DNA from: a virus
Virus record (IMG/VR): IMGVR_UViG_3300030616_000048
Coordinates: 1-42,137 of that record
Direction: 5' to 3' (one strand)
Length of the DNA: 42,137 nucleotides
Part shown: in pieces, positions 128 through 42,125 of the stretch
How the letters are laid out: each line of letters opens with the position of its first letter
Numbering within the stretch: the first letter of the stretch is position 1
The notes under the pieces: generated by a model
Seen by the model: only the letters and a program-made list of their open reading frames with translations
Databases searched by the model: none
What the model was told of the DNA's origin: nothing
Translations under genes and position numbers: made by a program

Positions 128-130
128 TAG

Positions 131-248
131 CACCCTTGGAAGGAATTGAACCCCCACACGGAAATTACTAAATATTAGTTTATAATATCGTACGCATACT
201 AAAACCTCTAATATTCTAATTTAACCTTAAATGCAACCAGCTAGGGTA
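131..248 (-). ncRNA. tRNA-like structured element downstream of MuF copy A
   Basis: On the minus strand this 118-nt stretch begins ACCCTAG and ends CAAGGGT, which pair at 6 of 7 positions like an acceptor stem. A T-arm-like hairpin (GGGGG-TTCAATT-CCTTC) lies immediately before the 3' half. The centre holds an 8-bp perfect stem AATATTAG/CTAATATT enclosing 29 nt, far more than an anticodon loop, and a tiny TTTAA-GG-TTAAA hairpin where a D-arm would be. It is not a normal tRNA; it could be a degenerate or insertion-bearing tRNA gene, or another structured RNA. It replaces the Acb2-like gene and the extra RNA found at the same position in branch B. Confidence 0.4.
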
Positions 249-250
249 TA

Positions 251-1078
251 TTATTTATTTCTCCATTCCTCATATGTCTTATAATTTATATATTTTCCTG
301 TTGTCTGCTCATATCTTGTATCTGTACCTTGTATTTCTTCAAACACTTGTATTGTAGTACATCTACACCTGATATCTTCTTTAGCTATACCAAATCCACC
401 AGGATATTTTGTTTTTCCTCCAGAACTATAAAAATATCCTTCATTATCTGCATACTTCCCGTCAAGTTTCTGGTGTGTATCTCTGGTTCTCATATCCAAT
501 GTTGAAACCCATCTAACACGAAAATTTATTCCTGCTATTCTTGCTCCTTGATATCCTTTGTTTGTTGCCTCTTCTTGTATACGATGTGCTTCGGTTCTTG
601 CTATTAATAAACTTCTATCCTTGTCAACATTAAGCCTATTTCTAAGCTTCTTTGCAATCTTATCAATTGATTCTCCTTTTTTAACACTCTGCTTAACTAT
701 TCTTTTAGCTTCAATTAAGATATTATTTCTATTTCTTGTTAATCTTTGTATAAGTGTTTTCCCTGCTACTTTTCTATTGATAATTTTATTGACAATTTCG
801 TCTACTTTATTAATCAAACTTTTACTTATGTTTATTTTACCTTTTTTTTCGGAATTATACAATGTTCTTAAGTATTTTTGATTTGCTATTTGTTTGAATC
901 TTTTGAATAAAGATGGAGTCATTTTGTCATAAGACTTATTAATCTCATTCTCTATCTTTCTAACAAGCTTATACATGCCTTTTAATTTTGTATCTTTAGA
1001 TTTATCAAATATTAATAAATGCTTTTTAATCTTACTTATCAATAAAGCATATAATTTTCTAATTTCATTTTGAGTCAT
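251..1078 (-). CDS. MuF-type minor head protein, copy A
   Basis: This 275-residue protein has the C-terminal signature of the phage Mu gpF / SPP1 gp7 family: ARTEAHRIQEEA, then RWVSTLDMRTRDTHQKLDGK, then the DIRCRC motif. Residues 1-150 are lysine-rich and helical. MuF proteins are minor capsid components associated with the portal and enter the head in low copy; in some phages they are ejected with DNA or carry toxin domains, but none is fused here. It lies downstream of the portal in the late leftward block. A second copy at 41298-42125 differs at 12 residues, including Y36D and a GGKT/GENT change near the C-terminus. Confidence 0.88.
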   Translation of the reverse strand: MTQNEIRKLYALLISKIKKHLLIFDKSKDTKLKGMYKLVRKIENEINKSYDKMTPSLFKRFKQIANQKYLRTLYNSEKKGKINISKSLINKVDEIVNKIINRKVAGKTLIQRLTRNRNNILIEAKRIVKQSVKKGESIDKIAKKLRNRLNVDKDRSLLIARTEAHRIQEEATNKGYQGARIAGINFRVRWVSTLDMRTRDTHQKLDGKYADNEGYFYSSGGKTKYPGGFGIAKEDIRCRCTTIQVFEEIQGTDTRYEQTTGKYINYKTYEEWRNK

Positions 1079-26873: not shown

Positions 26874-28607
26874 TTATAAATTCTGTTGTAATTGTTCGAT
26901 TTTTGTTGTTTTTATATAGCTTCCTGCTTCTACAACTGTAGGCGTAACTTTTGATGCAGATTGGCCCCATCTAAATGCTAATTTACCGCCATTTACACCA
27001 GTTTTTACTATAAACAAATCTTGCAATATTGATGGATAAGTTGTTCCTCCATCTGTACCATAGCTTACATTAGTCGTTGCATCTGGATATGCTGCATATT
27101 TTACATTCGTATCTCTAGCATCAGTAGTATTTGTTGGTATACCTAATCCAAATTTTTTGGTTACATATTCTATGTCGCCAGTTTCTTCCCAATCTGTATT
27201 AATATCGCCATCAGCATCATCATTATAATATGCTAAGACTAACAATATTTCAAACATGGAATTCGGAGGTAAAAAAACATATAATTCAGGGTCGTCTGTC
27301 AATGCTATTGTTGTATCTCTTGAAGTATCATATTTTTTGATTGTAATTTTGGGTTTATCCCAATTGCTCAAATCCATGTTATTTACATTAGATATCATAA
27401 AATCAGGTATCAGAGACAAGCCAACATCATCATAACCAAAATATAAATCGCCTTGTGTCACTGCATTTATACTTGTTTCATATTCTAATACCTTAATAAT
27501 TTCGTTACCTTTTGACACTATTGCTCTTAATGTATCAGAATTTTTTTCTAATGTTATTTCAAGTCTTTCACCATAATCAAGGGATGTATTCAAAGTAAAT
27601 GTTTCACTCGTTGGAGTACCATCTTCATTAATCAAAAGTGTAAAGTCATCATCATCAATCCATGCAGCAGCGTAATTATCAGAATCTATATACCAAGTCA
27701 TTATACTACTATAATCATCATAACGACAATGCATAATAGTTTTCCAAACAAAATTTATAATATTGGATCTAACTTTTAGTCCATCATATTCATCGGTATC
27801 ATTTGAATCATTTAGTAATTGTATGCATAAATCATTAAGGTTAGGGTCAAAATGTAGATTCCACATATCAGTATTCTGTTCAAAAAAACTACTCCACGCA
27901 CTTCCATCATAAATTTGAAATGGGTTGCCATAACCATCATTATCTGGGTCATTACGATACATCATTAATGATAATCCGGTTATCGTAAATCCTAGTTTGT
28001 CAGCTGCTGTAGTTGTTTCAAGAGCAACATATGTAATTGCCCCCCAACCTCCAGCAGGTACACCAGTTTGGCTAAATGCACTCTTTTTTGCCTGGAATGT
28101 AACTCTTCCAGATTCAGTCATAGAAAAAGTATAGGAATAATAATTTCCATTATCTTCGCCAATTTTTAGAGTTAGGCCTGCCGTAAATGCAGTATAGTCA
28201 AGAATGCTAACATTTAAACAAATAACATCTGCTGTAGTTGATGATTCTCCATCGTTAAATTTAGTTAAGTCAATAGATGCTATTGTGTCATCCATTCCTA
28301 TATCTCCGGCATTATTATCATTATCCCCAAAAGTAACATCTTCATTTCCTGTGTCTGGGTCAGATGCTTCGCCTAGTGAAGTACTTGCATTTATCGCAGC
28401 CCAATCATCCTGGTCATCAAACATATGAATTTCTTTGCAATTTCGCATCCAGAAATATCTTTTCAACGAATCAAATCTATAATTTGATGAATAAGCTAAT
28501 TCATCATCTATTTCATTTATTTTGTTTTCTCCAGGCTGCCAGGTTGATGGATTAAATGCCGTTACTCCATATTGGAATGTTTGTTTGTCATAATCTCCAA
28601 AAGCCAT
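26874..28607 (-). CDS. Tail tip / receptor-binding candidate, 577 aa
   Basis: Starts MAFGDYDKQTFQYGVTAFNP. Beta-rich, with many Asp/Asn/Thr/Ser residues and repeated jelly-roll-like strands (GNYYSYTFSMTESGRVTFQA; DDDFTLLINEDG), resembling lectin-like carbohydrate-binding domains. It lies last before the holin, behind the baseplate hub, the usual place for receptor-binding proteins. No specific family recognised. Confidence 0.6.
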   Translation of the reverse strand: MAFGDYDKQTFQYGVTAFNPSTWQPGENKINEIDDELAYSSNYRFDSLKRYFWMRNCKEIHMFDDQDDWAAINASTSLGEASDPDTGNEDVTFGDNDNNAGDIGMDDTIASIDLTKFNDGESSTTADVICLNVSILDYTAFTAGLTLKIGEDNGNYYSYTFSMTESGRVTFQAKKSAFSQTGVPAGGWGAITYVALETTTAADKLGFTITGLSLMMYRNDPDNDGYGNPFQIYDGSAWSSFFEQNTDMWNLHFDPNLNDLCIQLLNDSNDTDEYDGLKVRSNIINFVWKTIMHCRYDDYSSIMTWYIDSDNYAAAWIDDDDFTLLINEDGTPTSETFTLNTSLDYGERLEITLEKNSDTLRAIVSKGNEIIKVLEYETSINAVTQGDLYFGYDDVGLSLIPDFMISNVNNMDLSNWDKPKITIKKYDTSRDTTIALTDDPELYVFLPPNSMFEILLVLAYYNDDADGDINTDWEETGDIEYVTKKFGLGIPTNTTDARDTNVKYAAYPDATTNVSYGTDGGTTYPSILQDLFIVKTGVNGGKLAFRWGQSASKVTPTVVEAGSYIKTTKIEQLQQNL

Positions 28608-36628: not shown

Positions 36629-38584
36629 TTAGGCTATATATCCGCCATCTTCACACGCACAATATTCAATTATGACATCTAAATCGACCGCTGTTGCACC
36701 AGTACCTTGTAAGTCAATTGTAATTGTTTTTGTAGCATCTAACGCAGAAGCACCTGAGAATGAAACTTGTTCATCATCTGCATTAATCGAAGCCGTTACC
36801 GCTGTAGCTGCTGAAATAAATTCAACTACCTGGCTTGCTCCTCCTTCAATTGCTGCGCTTGTTAGGTCTGCTGTTGTAACTCCATTTGCTTTTAAAACAA
36901 TTCTATTTATCATACATGATTGTGTTGTGATTGTTCCAACTGTTGTTACTCCTGCATTTGCTGCCGATGTAATGTTTTTTGTAAAGATTTGAGTTTTACC
37001 AGCTTGTCTTTTACACGCATCAGAAGGTGTTTCGATTTTATTTGCTTCTGTCTGTAAATTACCAAGTCTTGTTACAAGACTACTATTAGCAAAATCTCCC
37101 AATAGCGCTCCTAATGTTGCTGTTCCACCTGCGTTTACTATTGTTCCTATTACGTCAGTGTCTTCTATAATCTGTAATGCCAATGCATATAAACTGTCAC
37201 CTGCTGTTGTATCTGTTTTATTTCCAAGGACATCACTTACGACTGCGTTATCGCTAGAATTTTGTGCTGGAACATCGTGGAAAGCATCAATTACAACTAA
37301 TGCAGCTAATACTTGTTTTAATAATGCTATTGCACTAGTTCCGCCAACTGTATCATTTTTATTTCCAACTACATCACTCATCAGGCTGTTATCGGCTGTG
37401 TCAGCAGTTGGCACATCTAATGTAGCTGGAATAGTTGTTCCGGTATCTGTCAATATGTCAGCCACTTCTGTATTTACAGCATTTAATATTGCAGCAACTT
37501 CTGTGTCAACATATCCAGAAATTGCATCAACCACAGTTTTGATTGCTGCTATATCTGTGCTCATATCTGTTCCGGCTGGAGACCCTTCATTTGCTAATAT
37601 TTGCAATGCTAAAGCATAAATGCTATCCCCACCAACTGTATCTGTTTTATTACCTATTACATCTCTCATCTGAGAATTGTCAGCACTATCTTGAGTTGGT
37701 ATATCATGAAATGCGTCAATTGTAGCTATTCCGCTTGTGTCTGCTGCTGCAATTGCACTATCTTGCGAACCTGAACAATTTGCACCAGTTTCACCATCTT
37801 GACCATAAAATGTCCACGTGCTTGAACCTGCTGTATCTATAACATGTTTTGCATAATTTGTCATTCCTTGATTATATACTCTTGCAAATATCTTTACATT
37901 TTTACAAGATGTTGTGTGCATTTCCACAAGTGCTGTTGTTGCCTGCCCAAAATAATCTACATTAATAGTAGCATAATCAGATCCAACTAATCTAATTACT
38001 GAATCATTTCCAGAGCCATCTGTAAATCCAACATATCTTAAATTCAAATCAAGATAATCCGCTGTAGCTTCTGTCAATACTCCAATATTAGCCTCAACCG
38101 TATTTGATGTATCTCTTATTTCAATATCGAGTTTACATCCACTTCCAGAAATTAATACAGGCTGTGTTGCTCCATCTTTATTTACAATAATTATAAAATT
38201 CTTGAATATTACACCATTTCCACTGATGTCAACTCCTGCATCTGCTGCTGTTTTAACCGTTAATTTTGGTCTGTTTTCGCCTTTTCCAAGTCCTATTACT
38301 TCAACCCCATTTGTGTCTAATACACAAGCTGTCGCACTTGCCAAATCTTCTGCATGATTTGGGCATACAAATATTTTATCCCCATTATTTGCTGTTGTTA
38401 AATTATTTGCATTGTCAATAGTATCAATAGGGCTATCCATTGTTCCAGAACCTACACTACTTCCGGAATCATCAACAAAATATGTATTACCTGTAATTGG
38501 CCCGTTCTGTTCAGCATATTTTTCAAATGCTTCCTCTAACTGTTTTCTCATATCTTGATTTCTTACTTTTGTTAACTCTACCAT
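36629..38584 (-). CDS. Large head-fibre-like protein with beta-helix and repeats
   Basis: Starting at the ATG after GGAGG gives 651 residues (MVELTKVRNQDMRKQLEEAF). A short helix is followed by a right-handed beta-helix-like region (about 30-275: GNTYFVDDSGSSVGSGTMDS, then ISGNGVIFKNFIII). Residues 289-330, 388-427 and 432-473 hold three degenerate copies of IDAFHDIPTQDSADNSQMRD followed by VIGNKTDTVGGDSIYALALQ; alanine-rich helical linkers separate copies 1 and 2. The C-terminal 110 residues are beta-rich. Adjacent to the capsid gene and expressed with it, so a head decoration fibre is the best guess; a pectate-lyase-like enzyme is an alternative. Confidence 0.65.
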   Translation of the reverse strand: MVELTKVRNQDMRKQLEEAFEKYAEQNGPITGNTYFVDDSGSSVGSGTMDSPIDTIDNANNLTTANNGDKIFVCPNHAEDLASATACVLDTNGVEVIGLGKGENRPKLTVKTAADAGVDISGNGVIFKNFIIIVNKDGATQPVLISGSGCKLDIEIRDTSNTVEANIGVLTEATADYLDLNLRYVGFTDGSGNDSVIRLVGSDYATINVDYFGQATTALVEMHTTSCKNVKIFARVYNQGMTNYAKHVIDTAGSSTWTFYGQDGETGANCSGSQDSAIAAADTSGIATIDAFHDIPTQDSADNSQMRDVIGNKTDTVGGDSIYALALQILANEGSPAGTDMSTDIAAIKTVVDAISGYVDTEVAAILNAVNTEVADILTDTGTTIPATLDVPTADTADNSLMSDVVGNKNDTVGGTSAIALLKQVLAALVVIDAFHDVPAQNSSDNAVVSDVLGNKTDTTAGDSLYALALQIIEDTDVIGTIVNAGGTATLGALLGDFANSSLVTRLGNLQTEANKIETPSDACKRQAGKTQIFTKNITSAANAGVTTVGTITTQSCMINRIVLKANGVTTADLTSAAIEGGASQVVEFISAATAVTASINADDEQVSFSGASALDATKTITIDLQGTGATAVDLDVIIEYCACEDGGYIA

Positions 38585-38603
38585 ATTTTTACCTCCAATA
38601 ATA

Positions 38604-38660
38604 TAAGCTATACATAACAAATGTATAGCTTATTTGTTATGTAGACAGGTTCAAGCCTGT
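38604..38660 (-). other. Two hairpins between the 73-aa gene and head fibre
   Basis: The first is an 11-bp stem (AAGCTATACAT / ATGTATAGCTT) and the second a six-bp stem (GACAGG / CCTGTC). Neither has a good uridine tract. They may process or attenuate the late mRNA, lowering fibre expression relative to capsid. Confidence 0.55.
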
Positions 38661-38917: not shown

Positions 38918-39871
38918 TCAACTTGTCGAAAGACCAGTAAGTGAACCATGGTATTCTTCAGGTCCAAAATCTAATCCGATTTGTAGATATAATTGATTTT
39001 CATCTTTAGCCCCTGTTTTTGCTAAAGGTTCATCAACCATAAGCATCCCTTTGTATGGACAATACATAGGAGCAACAACGGCCATATCTATAATATATAA
39101 ATCGTCTGTAAGCATTTGTGGAGCAAAAACCACACCTATCATTGCAAAATCTGTTTCTATTTGTTTTATATTTACACCACCAACATTTCTGTCTTCTGGA
39201 GCATATCCATATATATCACTTAATTGCTGTTTTTGAAAAGCGTTGCAGAAAATAACAGGGTTAATAAATTGTGCACCATTTCCGACCATTGTTCTTAATA
39301 TATTATTAATTAATGCTTTAGAAAGTGCAGCGCCTCCTGTTGCGACTGTATTTGTAGCAATTGCATTTGCAAAGCCTTGTGTTTTTGTATTTGTGCTTGA
39401 ATCGGTTACAGCTGTTTCACTGCCTTGAAAAAATGAAAATTCTATATTAACTGCTAATTGTCTTAAGGCTCCAGTTCTTTGAAATGCTTTTTCATCTGTA
39501 ACTGGGTTTCCTCCATCAGTTGGCCCTGCTACATTTGTTATTGCTCCGATTTCTCCTGTTGTTGATTGTTTTGCATAACTTGAGCCATATGCTTCATGCA
39601 TAATCTGTATCGTATTTGTGTCCTGTCCTCTTGTGTAAGTTCTTACTGTTGGACCTGCTGCTGCTGTATCCTCTGATACTGTGTCCTGATTTGCTGCATC
39701 TAATGCCCAAGGTTGTGCAACTGAGAATGTAAAACCCTTGCATGTCTTACCTCCACCACCTGCTAAACCACCCATCATATTTAACAATGGTGTTTGATTA
39801 GCTCCGATTAAATATAATTCACCTAGATAATTCAGATCTTCTCTTTGCGCGTAAGCGTTATGATTAGCCAT
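38918..39871 (-). CDS. Major capsid protein (HK97-fold, DUF5309/SU10-like)
   Basis: A 317-residue protein with a pattern typical of the DUF5309/SU10 capsid family: AQREDLNYLGELYLIGANQT, then PLLNMMGG, VSEDTAAAGPTVRTYTRGQD, TRGQDTNTIQIMHEAYGSSY and the end LYLQIGLDFGPEEYHGSLTG. It follows the scaffold gene directly. The capsid assembles around the scaffold; no prohead protease is visible. Confidence 0.88.
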   Translation of the reverse strand: MANHNAYAQREDLNYLGELYLIGANQTPLLNMMGGLAGGGGKTCKGFTFSVAQPWALDAANQDTVSEDTAAAGPTVRTYTRGQDTNTIQIMHEAYGSSYAKQSTTGEIGAITNVAGPTDGGNPVTDEKAFQRTGALRQLAVNIEFSFFQGSETAVTDSSTNTKTQGFANAIATNTVATGGAALSKALINNILRTMVGNGAQFINPVIFCNAFQKQQLSDIYGYAPEDRNVGGVNIKQIETDFAMIGVVFAPQMLTDDLYIIDMAVVAPMYCPYKGMLMVDEPLAKTGAKDENQLYLQIGLDFGPEEYHGSLTGLSTS

Positions 39872-39882
39872 GAATTACACCT

Positions 39883-40515
39883 CTATTCTAATTGATTAAT
39901 TTGCATTCTTATTGATTGCATTCTTATAACGTCTTTTTGTTCTGCTGCTTTGTTGTAACTTTCTATTAATTGCTGTTTCTTGCTTAAATTACTTGTATTG
40001 CTTGTCAAAGGATTGTTGTTACCTGGTTCAACATTCCCCTGTGTTTGGACAGTTTCAAACATATTAGGGTATTGTTTCTTCTTTGCTTCAATATCAAAAT
40101 TTTTAATACTATCTCCTTCTAATTCTATTTCATCAAGATTAATAGTATTAAGTAATAAGTCAGGATAAACAGCTTTATTATCTGTCAATAATTTTGATAA
40201 TGCACTTTTCTTTGATATATCTGTAATTTGCTTATCCTTAGCCTTCAATTTACCTGTAAAATCATTGTTCAATGTATCAATTTGACTCTTCAACTCTTGA
40301 TTGCTTTCAACTAATTTATTGATATCTTTACTATTTTTTTTATATTCTTCAATTTGCTCTTTCAAAAGTTTGTTTTCTTCATTTTTTTCATTGAACTTAT
40401 CCCTTGGTAAATAATCTCCCTTTGATATATCTGCTATTTTTACCTTTGCTTCTTCAAGCTTAGGCTTAACTTGATTATACAAATCTTCTCCTAAAATATG
40501 TTTTAACCATTCCAT
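39883..40515 (-). CDS. Scaffolding protein (GP20-like)
   Basis: A 210-residue protein starting MEWLKHILGEDLYNQVKPKL, with a long coiled coil (NEKNEENKLLKEQIEEYKKN) and a C-terminal helix, and with LLTDNKAVYPDLLLNTINLD, the pattern of phage scaffold proteins (phage minor structural GP20). It guides capsid assembly and then leaves. GAAGGAGAAATAAAA precedes the ATG. Confidence 0.88.
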   Translation of the reverse strand: MEWLKHILGEDLYNQVKPKLEEAKVKIADISKGDYLPRDKFNEKNEENKLLKEQIEEYKKNSKDINKLVESNQELKSQIDTLNNDFTGKLKAKDKQITDISKKSALSKLLTDNKAVYPDLLLNTINLDEIELEGDSIKNFDIEAKKKQYPNMFETVQTQGNVEPGNNNPLTSNTSNLSKKQQLIESYNKAAEQKDVIRMQSIRMQINQLE

Positions 40516-40536
40516 TTTTATTTCTCCTTCTATTCC

Positions 40537-41055
40537 GATTTAGTTTTTTAGCCTGGTATACTATCCAGGATATCGACGGTTAAGTGAGTAACCGACTCTT
40601 TTATAATAGCATGGATGGATTTGCACCATCACCTTGGCTTTTTACACCACATTCTACTTGTTAAAATACACACTATACCAACTCGGATTAACATACGATT
40701 TAATCCTATTGAATTGCATATATTGCCTCATTGAAAATACGTTCAAATATTGGCTCAATGCGGAAAGCCACTCAAGGGAGTCGAACCCTTGAACTTCCGA
40801 GCTTTCGCCGTGACTATGGTGTTGTGAGATATCCACAACCTTACATACTAGTATATATAATACATTCATACGGTAGCTAACCGTAATAATTGAACCATAC
40901 TTTATTTATAATAATATAAGTGTGTTGTTACACCAAAGAGACTGGGACGCTCCCATAAAATTTATGTGTGTTCCGGCATTTTGCCATCTTGCTATACATA
41001 CAAGACCTGTTGTCTCACTCCTTAGATGATAGCTACCTCTAAGCCCACATCCTTA
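40537..41055 (-). ncRNA. Gene-free, hairpin-rich region with tRNA-like elements
   Basis: About 520 bases between the Acb2-like gene and the scaffold contain no credible gene. On the minus strand several T-arm-like hairpins occur: GATGG-TGCAAAT-CCATC preceded by TAGTGTG pairing fully (with wobbles) to CATGCTA, which gives a 69-nt tRNA-like fold with an anticodon-like loop GTAAAAA; and AAGGG-TTCGACT-CCCTT in the shared 127-mer, with GCTAC/GTGGC pairing upstream. Near 40980-41005 a CTTGT-ATGTATA-GCAAG stem-loop is followed by a GGCAAAATGCC hairpin, similar to a tRNA-Tyr anticodon plus variable arm. None folds as a complete normal tRNA, so they are degenerate or unusual tRNAs or parts of a large structured RNA. 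Confidence 0.45.
40781..40907. repeat. Second copy of the 127-bp repeat, branch point
   Basis: Identical to 1-127. To the left lies the scaffold side in both paths; to the right the main path continues as at base 128 and the other as at 40908. Unlike the start copy, the complete tRNA-like T-arm can be seen here with its left flank. Confidence 0.9.
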
Positions 41056-41061
41056 TATTAT

Positions 41062-41298
41062 TTATTCTTCTAAAACAATATTTTTTGTTGCAAACATTAA
41101 TGACTCTTCTAATTTTGTTATTGCAAGACTTTGTTCTCTGGATTGCTTACTATTTTCTAAAAGTGCTCTAACTAAAGATTTATAAAGCGTTCTTATAATT
41201 TCTATCCTATTTATTTGTTCCTCGTTAGGCTTTATATTTGTCATGCCTTTTTGTATCTGCTCAATTCTTTCATCAACTGTTAAATCTCTAATATCCAT
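41062..41298 (-). CDS. Acb2-like anti-CBASS cyclic nucleotide sponge
   Basis: Seventy-eight residues: helix MDIRDLTVDERIEQIQKGMT, then NEEQINRIEIIRTLYKSLVR, then SREQSLAITKLEESLMFATK and NIVLEE. The helical hairpin with the pattern SRExSLAxTKLEExxMxAxxxI is the hallmark of the Acb2/Tad1 hairpin (DUF7681) family, whose members sequester cyclic di- and trinucleotides made by CBASS defence systems. The ATG overlaps the MuF copy B stop as TAATG. The gene is only in branch B. Function is by family similarity seen by eye. Confidence 0.78.
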   Translation of the reverse strand: MDIRDLTVDERIEQIQKGMTNIKPNEEQINRIEIIRTLYKSLVRALLENSKQSREQSLAITKLEESLMFATKNIVLEE

Positions 41299-42125
41299 TA
41301 TTTATTTCTCCATTCCTCATATGTCTTATAATTAATATATTCTCCTGTTGTCTGTTCATATCTTGTATCTGTACCTTGTATTTCTTCAAACACTTGTATT
41401 GTAGTACATCTACACCTGATATCTTCCTTAGCTATACCAAATCCCCCAGGATATTTCGTATTTTCTCCAGAACTATAAAAATATCCTTCTTCATCTGCAT
41501 ACTTCCCGTCAAGTTTCTGGTGTGTATCTCTGGTTCTCATATCCAATGTCGAAACCCATCTAACACGAAAATTTATTCCTGCTATTCTTGCTCCTTGATA
41601 TCCTTTATTTGTTGCCTCTTCTTGTATACGATGTGCTTCGGTTCTTGCTATTAATAAACTTCTATTTTTATCAACATTAAGCCTATCTCTAAGCTTCTTT
41701 GCAATCTTATCAATAGATTCTCCTTTTTTAACACTCTGCTTAACTATTCTTTTAGCTTCAATTAAGATATTATTTCTATTTCTTGTCAATCTTTGTATAA
41801 GTGTTTTTCCTGCAACTTTTCTATTGATAATTTTATTGACAATTTCGTCTACTTTATTAATCAAATTTTTACTTATGTTTATTTTACCTTTTTTTTCGGA
41901 ATTATACAATGTTCTTAGATATTTTCTGCTTGCTATTTGTTTGAATCTTTTGAAAAGTGATGGATTCATCTTGTCATAAGATTTGTTAATCTCATTCTCT
42001 ATCTTTCTAACAAGTTTATCCATACCCTTTAATTTTGTGTCTTTAGTTTTGTCAAATATTAATAAATGCTTTTTAATCTTACTTATCAATAAAGCATATA
42101 ATTTTCTAATTTCATTTTGAGTCAT
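41298..42125 (-). CDS. MuF-type minor head protein, copy B
   Basis: A 275-residue full-length homologue of copy A, with the same ARTEAHRIQEEA, RWVSTLDMRTRDTHQKLDGK and DIRCRC motifs. Twelve substitutions separate them, clustered in the N-terminal helical part and near the C-terminus (ADNE/ADEE; GGKT/GENT; TGKY/TGEY). DNA upstream of the ATG matches copy A as far as the window runs. It is most likely the same gene from a strain variant rather than a tandem duplicate. Confidence 0.85.
   Translation of the reverse strand: MTQNEIRKLYALLISKIKKHLLIFDKTKDTKLKGMDKLVRKIENEINKSYDKMNPSLFKRFKQIASRKYLRTLYNSEKKGKINISKNLINKVDEIVNKIINRKVAGKTLIQRLTRNRNNILIEAKRIVKQSVKKGESIDKIAKKLRDRLNVDKNRSLLIARTEAHRIQEEATNKGYQGARIAGINFRVRWVSTLDMRTRDTHQKLDGKYADEEGYFYSSGENTKYPGGFGIAKEDIRCRCTTIQVFEEIQGTDTRYEQTTGEYINYKTYEEWRNK

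Follow-up and report, generated by a model that had tools for sequence, protein, structure and literature searches.

Why would a phage carry the gene of a putative signal-binding protein within its head operon, and in only one of two haplotypes? The question is raised by the virus record IMGVR_UViG_3300030616_000048, whose 42,137 nucleotides (the window) contain two versions of the region between a MuF minor head protein gene and a scaffolding protein gene. A reading made from the sequence only had described the 78-residue product as an Acb2-like anti-CBASS protein. We analyzed the protein, its predicted fold, its genomic position, and the RNA elements around it. The reading that we favor, to which we assign a probability of roughly two in three, is that an exchangeable two-part cassette, consisting of a sponge protein and an rRNA mimic, lies between MuF and scaffold, and that the protein more probably binds a cyclic trinucleotide or some other signal than 3′3′-cGAMP.

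A protein of the Acb2/Tad1 hairpin superfamily

The gene in question is the following:

41062–41298, minus strand: Acb2/Tad1-hairpin protein, 78 residues (PF24729 match, AF2 model, Foldseek)

The open reading frame starts with ATG, has GGAG upstream, and overlaps the MuF stop codon in the sequence TAATG, in agreement with the coupling to MuF proposed from the sequence. In a Pfam profile search, the protein matches Acb2_Tad1_hairpin (PF24729) with 39.7 bits (E = 5.6e-10), and since this score lies above the curated cut-off of 27 bits, the family signature is not due to chance. It also matches phrog_1454 in PHROGs (E = 1e-10). The best solved relative by sequence is PDB entry 9ptq (‘Acb2 homolog 43’), found with E = 5e-4 as a single sequence and 1e-8 as a profile, although the similarity is confined to 49 hairpin residues; Tad1 chains rank after it in the PDB profile search. 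An NCBIfam search yielded only a sub-threshold match to TIGR02574, and the annotated phage collection held no close relatives. Membership in the Acb2/Tad1 hairpin superfamily, as claimed by the sequence-only reading, is confirmed by these sequence profiles, on which the family call depends.

Helical hairpins are a common shape, and structural similarity has to be read accordingly. An AF2 model based on 43 relatives (pLDDT 90.2) contains helices at residues 8–19, 26–49, and 54–76 and no strands. The short N-terminal helix, as expected of Acb2 proper, precedes a long hairpin of two antiparallel helices with S53-R54-E55 at the turn, whereas the N-terminal antiparallel β-sheet of the Tad1 type is absent from the model. 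When the model was compared with the PDB using Foldseek, chains of T4 Vs.4/Acb2 (7uq2) took ranks 1–3, but with weak E values of 0.57–0.88; the top 12 also include Acb2 8h2x and Tad1 (E = 0.57 or worse). VIA-align gave Z scores of 6.2, 6.1, and 5.9 to 7uq2, 8h2x, and 8h2j, respectively, where about 6 is the range of unrelated hairpins. With a first model based on eight sequences, Foldseek did not place Acb2 in the top 50, and it was VIA and the deeper model that recovered it. The model thus contains the helical hairpin that had been anticipated, but since the Foldseek E values are weak and such Z scores are reached by many hairpins, the predicted fold agrees with the sequence evidence without being proof of the family.

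N-terminal motif and ligand

The N-terminal motif of the family, FTYHAP, is strongly conserved, the individual conservation of F, T, Y, and H being at least 90% among the 43 relatives. The 78-residue protein has MTNIKP in its place, with Asn21 in the column of the conserved Tyr, and F19, H22, and Y32 are also missing. MTNIKP recurs in contig L023, at 58–63% identity to the protein; this was the only further member of the subclade in the viral contig set, and the genome contig set had none. The FTYHAP Tyr would correspond to Tyr8 of T4 Acb2, an equivalence that comes from alignment rather than from a structure of the 78-residue protein, and it is probably the residue that stacks on cyclic dinucleotides; in T4 Acb2, the Y8A mutation abolishes cyclic-dinucleotide binding (PMC12657218). 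The hairpin is the part common to the Acb2 and Tad1 families. Its turn, SREQSLAIT, is common to Tad1 and intact in the 78-residue protein, and the channel by which Acb2 binds trinucleotides, at its trimer interface, is reported to resemble that of Tad1 (PMC12043709). Because the Tyr is lost, the turn shared with Tad1 is kept, and the trinucleotide channel is similar in the two families, we predict 3′3′-cGAMP to be a less likely ligand than a cyclic trinucleotide or some different signal. With Asn replacing the conserved Tyr, a canonical cGAMP sponge, and hence the anti-CBASS title, appears less likely than the earlier reading suggests.

The protein could still be a canonical Acb2 that tolerates the Asn and binds both dinucleotides and trinucleotides in the manner of the T4 and PaMx33 proteins. 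This alternative, which we consider improbable, draws on the match of profile and fold across the whole protein and on the retention of the C-terminal helix and of the rest of the family motif, but it has to accommodate the loss of so conserved a Tyr, whose inferred T4 equivalent is needed for dinucleotide binding (PMC12657218), together with that of the three other residues. We therefore file the protein, by the missing Tyr, as a variant member of the superfamily and not as Acb2 proper. It is like Acb2 (T4 Vs.4, PaMx33/PaMx41 gp24; anti-CBASS 2) in length, in the short N-terminal helix followed by an antiparallel hairpin, in the PF24729 match, and in the turn motif, but unlike it in having Asn for the FTYHAP Tyr, in its location in a low-GC phage, within the late head operon, and in that its function is putative. 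With Tad1 (Thoeris anti-defence 1) it shares the profile match and the hairpin with its SRE..A.T turn, but it lacks the N-terminal β domain and has no assignable gcADPR pocket.

A variable slot in the head operon

Downstream of the region that contains acb2, the head operon continues with two genes:

39883–40515, minus strand: head scaffolding protein, the downstream border of the slot (PF06810, E = 2.9e-19; phrog_194)
38918–39871, minus strand: SU10-type major capsid protein (PF17236, E = 4e-54)

The order MuF–Acb2–scaffold is also found in contigs L086 and L068, and Acb2 lies at most about 2.2 kb from MuF in L094, L093, and L039. In relatives whose capsid protein is 43–56% identical, the number of small, mutually unrelated genes in the gap upstream of scaffold varies from none to two or more. 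A search with PF04233 in the major capsid protein relatives L012–L022 returned no matches, and their slot was read from the order of the open reading frames that precede scaffold and capsid. Comparison across phages thus upholds the proposal of a variable MuF–scaffold slot within the head operon. A search of the coding strand from MuF to scaffold returned no sigma-70-like promoter, which is consistent with read-through from upstream. In L068, a second hairpin-like protein containing SITKLQEAKMW (2031–2264) adjoins Acb2 in the MuF–scaffold gap, possibly as a tandem pair. Elsewhere in the window, two large open reading frames on the minus strand, 26874–28607 and 36629–38620, have no Pfam match (577 residues) and no PHROGs match (663 residues), respectively; a search for the host through prophages found none.

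The position between MuF and scaffold could reflect a role in head assembly or as a virion component, the hairpin being shared with Acb2 but unrelated to signaling. Small helical proteins are common in such operons, and both the position and the coupling would suit this explanation, yet we judge it very improbable: the gene is absent from the main haplotype, in which MuF, scaffold, and capsid are nonetheless all complete, the Acb2 hairpins of other phages have varied and unrelated neighbors (primases, terminases, portals, endolysins), and the SREQSLAIT turn is shared with Tad1. For an anti-defense cassette, a place in the late head operon would make sense, as capsid mutations help phages to escape CBASS (PMC10419184).

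Two haplotypes around a branch point

The two versions of the region are delimited by an exact repeat and comprise the following:

1–127, unstranded: branch vertex of the assembly graph, 127 nt, copy 1 (exact repeat)
40781–40907, unstranded: branch vertex of the assembly graph, 127 nt, copy 2 (exact repeat of 1–127)
128–250, minus strand: segment found only in the main haplotype, with T-arm-like and acceptor-like pairing and no gene (sequence and fold)
251–1078, minus strand: MuF minor head protein, main allele, with no acb2 downstream and a TAATAT junction (PF04233, 70.8 bits)
41298–42125, minus strand: MuF minor head protein, alternative allele, whose stop codon overlaps the acb2 start in TAATG (PF04233, 73.5 bits)

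After the 127-mer, the main path (128–1078) and the alternative path (40908–42125) diverge, and they merge again in the first 74 nt of MuF. The two MuF alleles, which have 86 nt in common at the far end, are distinguished by 41 of their 828 nt; 25 of the affected codons are synonymous and 12 non-synonymous, and the amino acid identity is 95.6%. Neither an acb2 gene nor a remnant of one is present in the main path. Two contigs end exactly at the branch bases, namely L011 (sample 3300028883) at base 40907 and L010 (sample 3300028920) at the last base common to both MuF alleles, from which it follows that the branch recurs in other samples. As L010 differs from the window at 34 of 4074 nt, it represents a separate strain that branches at the same point. 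The split into two haplotypes is real, and acb2 belongs, as the sequence-only reading had it, to only one side of it. The alternative allele is assigned to this phage body on the basis of the 127-nt overlap and of the assembly. An assembly artefact, in which the last 1.2 kb came from another phage and were joined through the 127-nt repeat, might explain why the record is linear with an end that repeats its start inexactly and why the overlap equals a typical de Bruijn k, but it is about as improbable as a head-assembly role, given that contigs from two other samples stop at the two branch bases, that one of them is a separate strain, and that the MuF alleles are 95% identical and rejoin at the far end.

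The same earlier reading had placed a tRNA-like element on the main path where the alternative path has acb2. The T-arm (GGGGG-TTCAATT-CCTTC) and an acceptor-like pairing (6 of 7) are present in 128–250, but the cloverleaf is not: no tRNA was called there by ARAGORN or Rfam. The segment folds no better than shuffled sequence (fold z 0.13), and the element is suggestive only. Both haplotypes share a further RNA region:

40516–40907, minus strand: structured RNA region common to both haplotypes (RF00005, fold)

It includes a tRNA-like gene at 40606–40675 (minus strand; RF00005 with 32.9 bits, Rfam cut-off 29) and a T-arm or minihelix at about 40755–40815; a search for the shared RNA part in E. 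coli found nothing. The tRNA-like gene lacks a clear anticodon loop, and its T-loop, TGCAAAT, is unusual. The stretch 40755–40907 (minus strand) folds strongly (z −3.2); a T-arm sits on an acceptor-like stem, without a clear D or anticodon arm.

An RNA resembling the GTPase-associated centre

While the acb2 gene on the alternative allele had been recognized, a second element on the same allele was missed:

40911–41061, minus strand: RNA that mimics the GTPase-associated centre of 23S rRNA, confined to the alternative allele and immediately downstream of the acb2 stop codon (fold, family covariation)
41052–41061 with 40911–40920, minus strand: outer 10-bp H42-like stem (pairing)
41025–41051, minus strand: H43-like hairpin (29/37 identity, pattern common to 26 viral contigs)
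40920–40937, minus strand: H44-like hairpin, UUUGGUGUAACAACACAC (sequence comparison)

The 151-nt RNA closed by the 10-bp stem has a fold z of −2.46. The identity of its H43 side is to E. coli 23S rRNA 1053–1089 and rises to 35 of 37 positions in other phages; for the H44 side of the window copy it is 11 of 15, by eye. The Rfam LSU model does not match the window's own copy, none of the large phage RNAs in Rfam (ROOL, GOLLD, others) matches in the slot, and a search for the slot DNA in plasmids found nothing. The window copy is more divergent than its relatives, and its link to 23S rRNA runs through those that are closer to it.

A BLAST match in the Xanthomonas jumbo phage XaC1 gave the motif AGGAUGUGGGCUUAGAGG, which we take to be the GTPase-associated centre of 23S rRNA. 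Of 5426 E. coli genomes, 5375 contain a 23S rRNA match to the XaC1 copy, the best with 94% identity over 36 nt, and the Rfam LSU model matches contig L112 over model positions 1077–1160 with E = 6e-9, below the gathering score. A pattern scan found the motif in 26 viral contigs, the pattern columns being conserved by search selection; in all 26, an insert of about 60–234 nt is followed by an H44-like hairpin. In the outer stem and H44, which the scan left free, compensatory changes occur in five of six outer pairs and in both H44 pairs. In an alignment of 20 sequences, which leaves out the insert between H43 and H44, 94.4% of the cells are paired, the covariation is 0.361 compared to 0.141 for shuffled alignments, and seven of 16 pairs have changed on both sides. 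The conservation of the H42, H43, and H44 pairings across relatives is thus supported. Contamination by true 23S rRNA was considered as a source of these loci and rejected, because none of them continues as 23S. The RNA has the H42/H43/H44 arrangement of the GTPase-associated centre (E. coli 1051–1108) but, unlike it, carries the insert between H43 and H44 and is a stand-alone phage gene, often beside tRNA genes.

Proposed mechanism

In the cassette that we propose, the 78-residue sponge protein would be translated by coupling to MuF and, like its relatives, may form an oligomer that would sequester alarm molecules of the cyclic oligonucleotide type and thereby keep abortive-infection effectors, of CBASS or similar systems, switched off while capsids are being made. 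The second part would be the RNA that mimics the GTPase-associated centre of the ribosome. The cassette could be exchanged between strains by recombination within the MuF and RNA sequences on either side, so that haplotypes with and without acb2 arise in the same samples. It can be argued that such a polymorphism would be favored by opposing pressures from CBASS and Panoptes, the latter triggered by Acb2 (PMC12657218). If the reading is true, the MuF–scaffold gap is a recurrent place for anti-defense genes, which would help to find others, and the dilemma between evading CBASS and tripping Panoptes becomes measurable in the wild through a natural acb2+/acb2− polymorphism.

A bolder version, which we regard as possible but doubtful, makes the acb2+ allele a double decoy. 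The sponge would be tuned off cyclic dinucleotides, the RNA, as a member of an undescribed phage family, would capture ribosomal protein L11 or else translation GTPases or enzymes that attack the site, and the polymorphism would be kept by opposing defenses, with, for example, CBASS favoring and Panoptes-like guards disfavoring the sponge.

The RNA in other phages

Acb2 and the RNA were found together only in the window; the DNA retrieved around the other loci held no Acb2. The RNA corresponds to no family in Rfam 15, and we found no paper on it in the open literature, although a prior description is possible. Among cultured phages, matches lie at unannotated places in GAP32, CBB, pf16, UNO-G1W1, 4_4572, XacN1, Pd_22F, and XaC1; its presence in the cultured jumbo phages GAP32, CBB, and XaC1 raises the question of why phages encode a piece of 23S rRNA. 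A tRNA gene lies at most 1 kb away at 15 of 27 loci. Two further loci illustrate the inserted arm:

L104, 1501–1740: mimic locus, arm inserted after H43 and before H44
L112, 7278–7458, minus strand: mimic locus, arm inserted after H43 and before H44

The 26 strict matches seem to be only part of the RNA family. The H44-side 18-mer TTTGGTGTAACAACACAC is present in 35 viral contig stretches (L130–L164), which form a larger and more divergent set with the H44-like hairpin; some of them, for example L137, L144, and L156, have a divergent H43 upstream.
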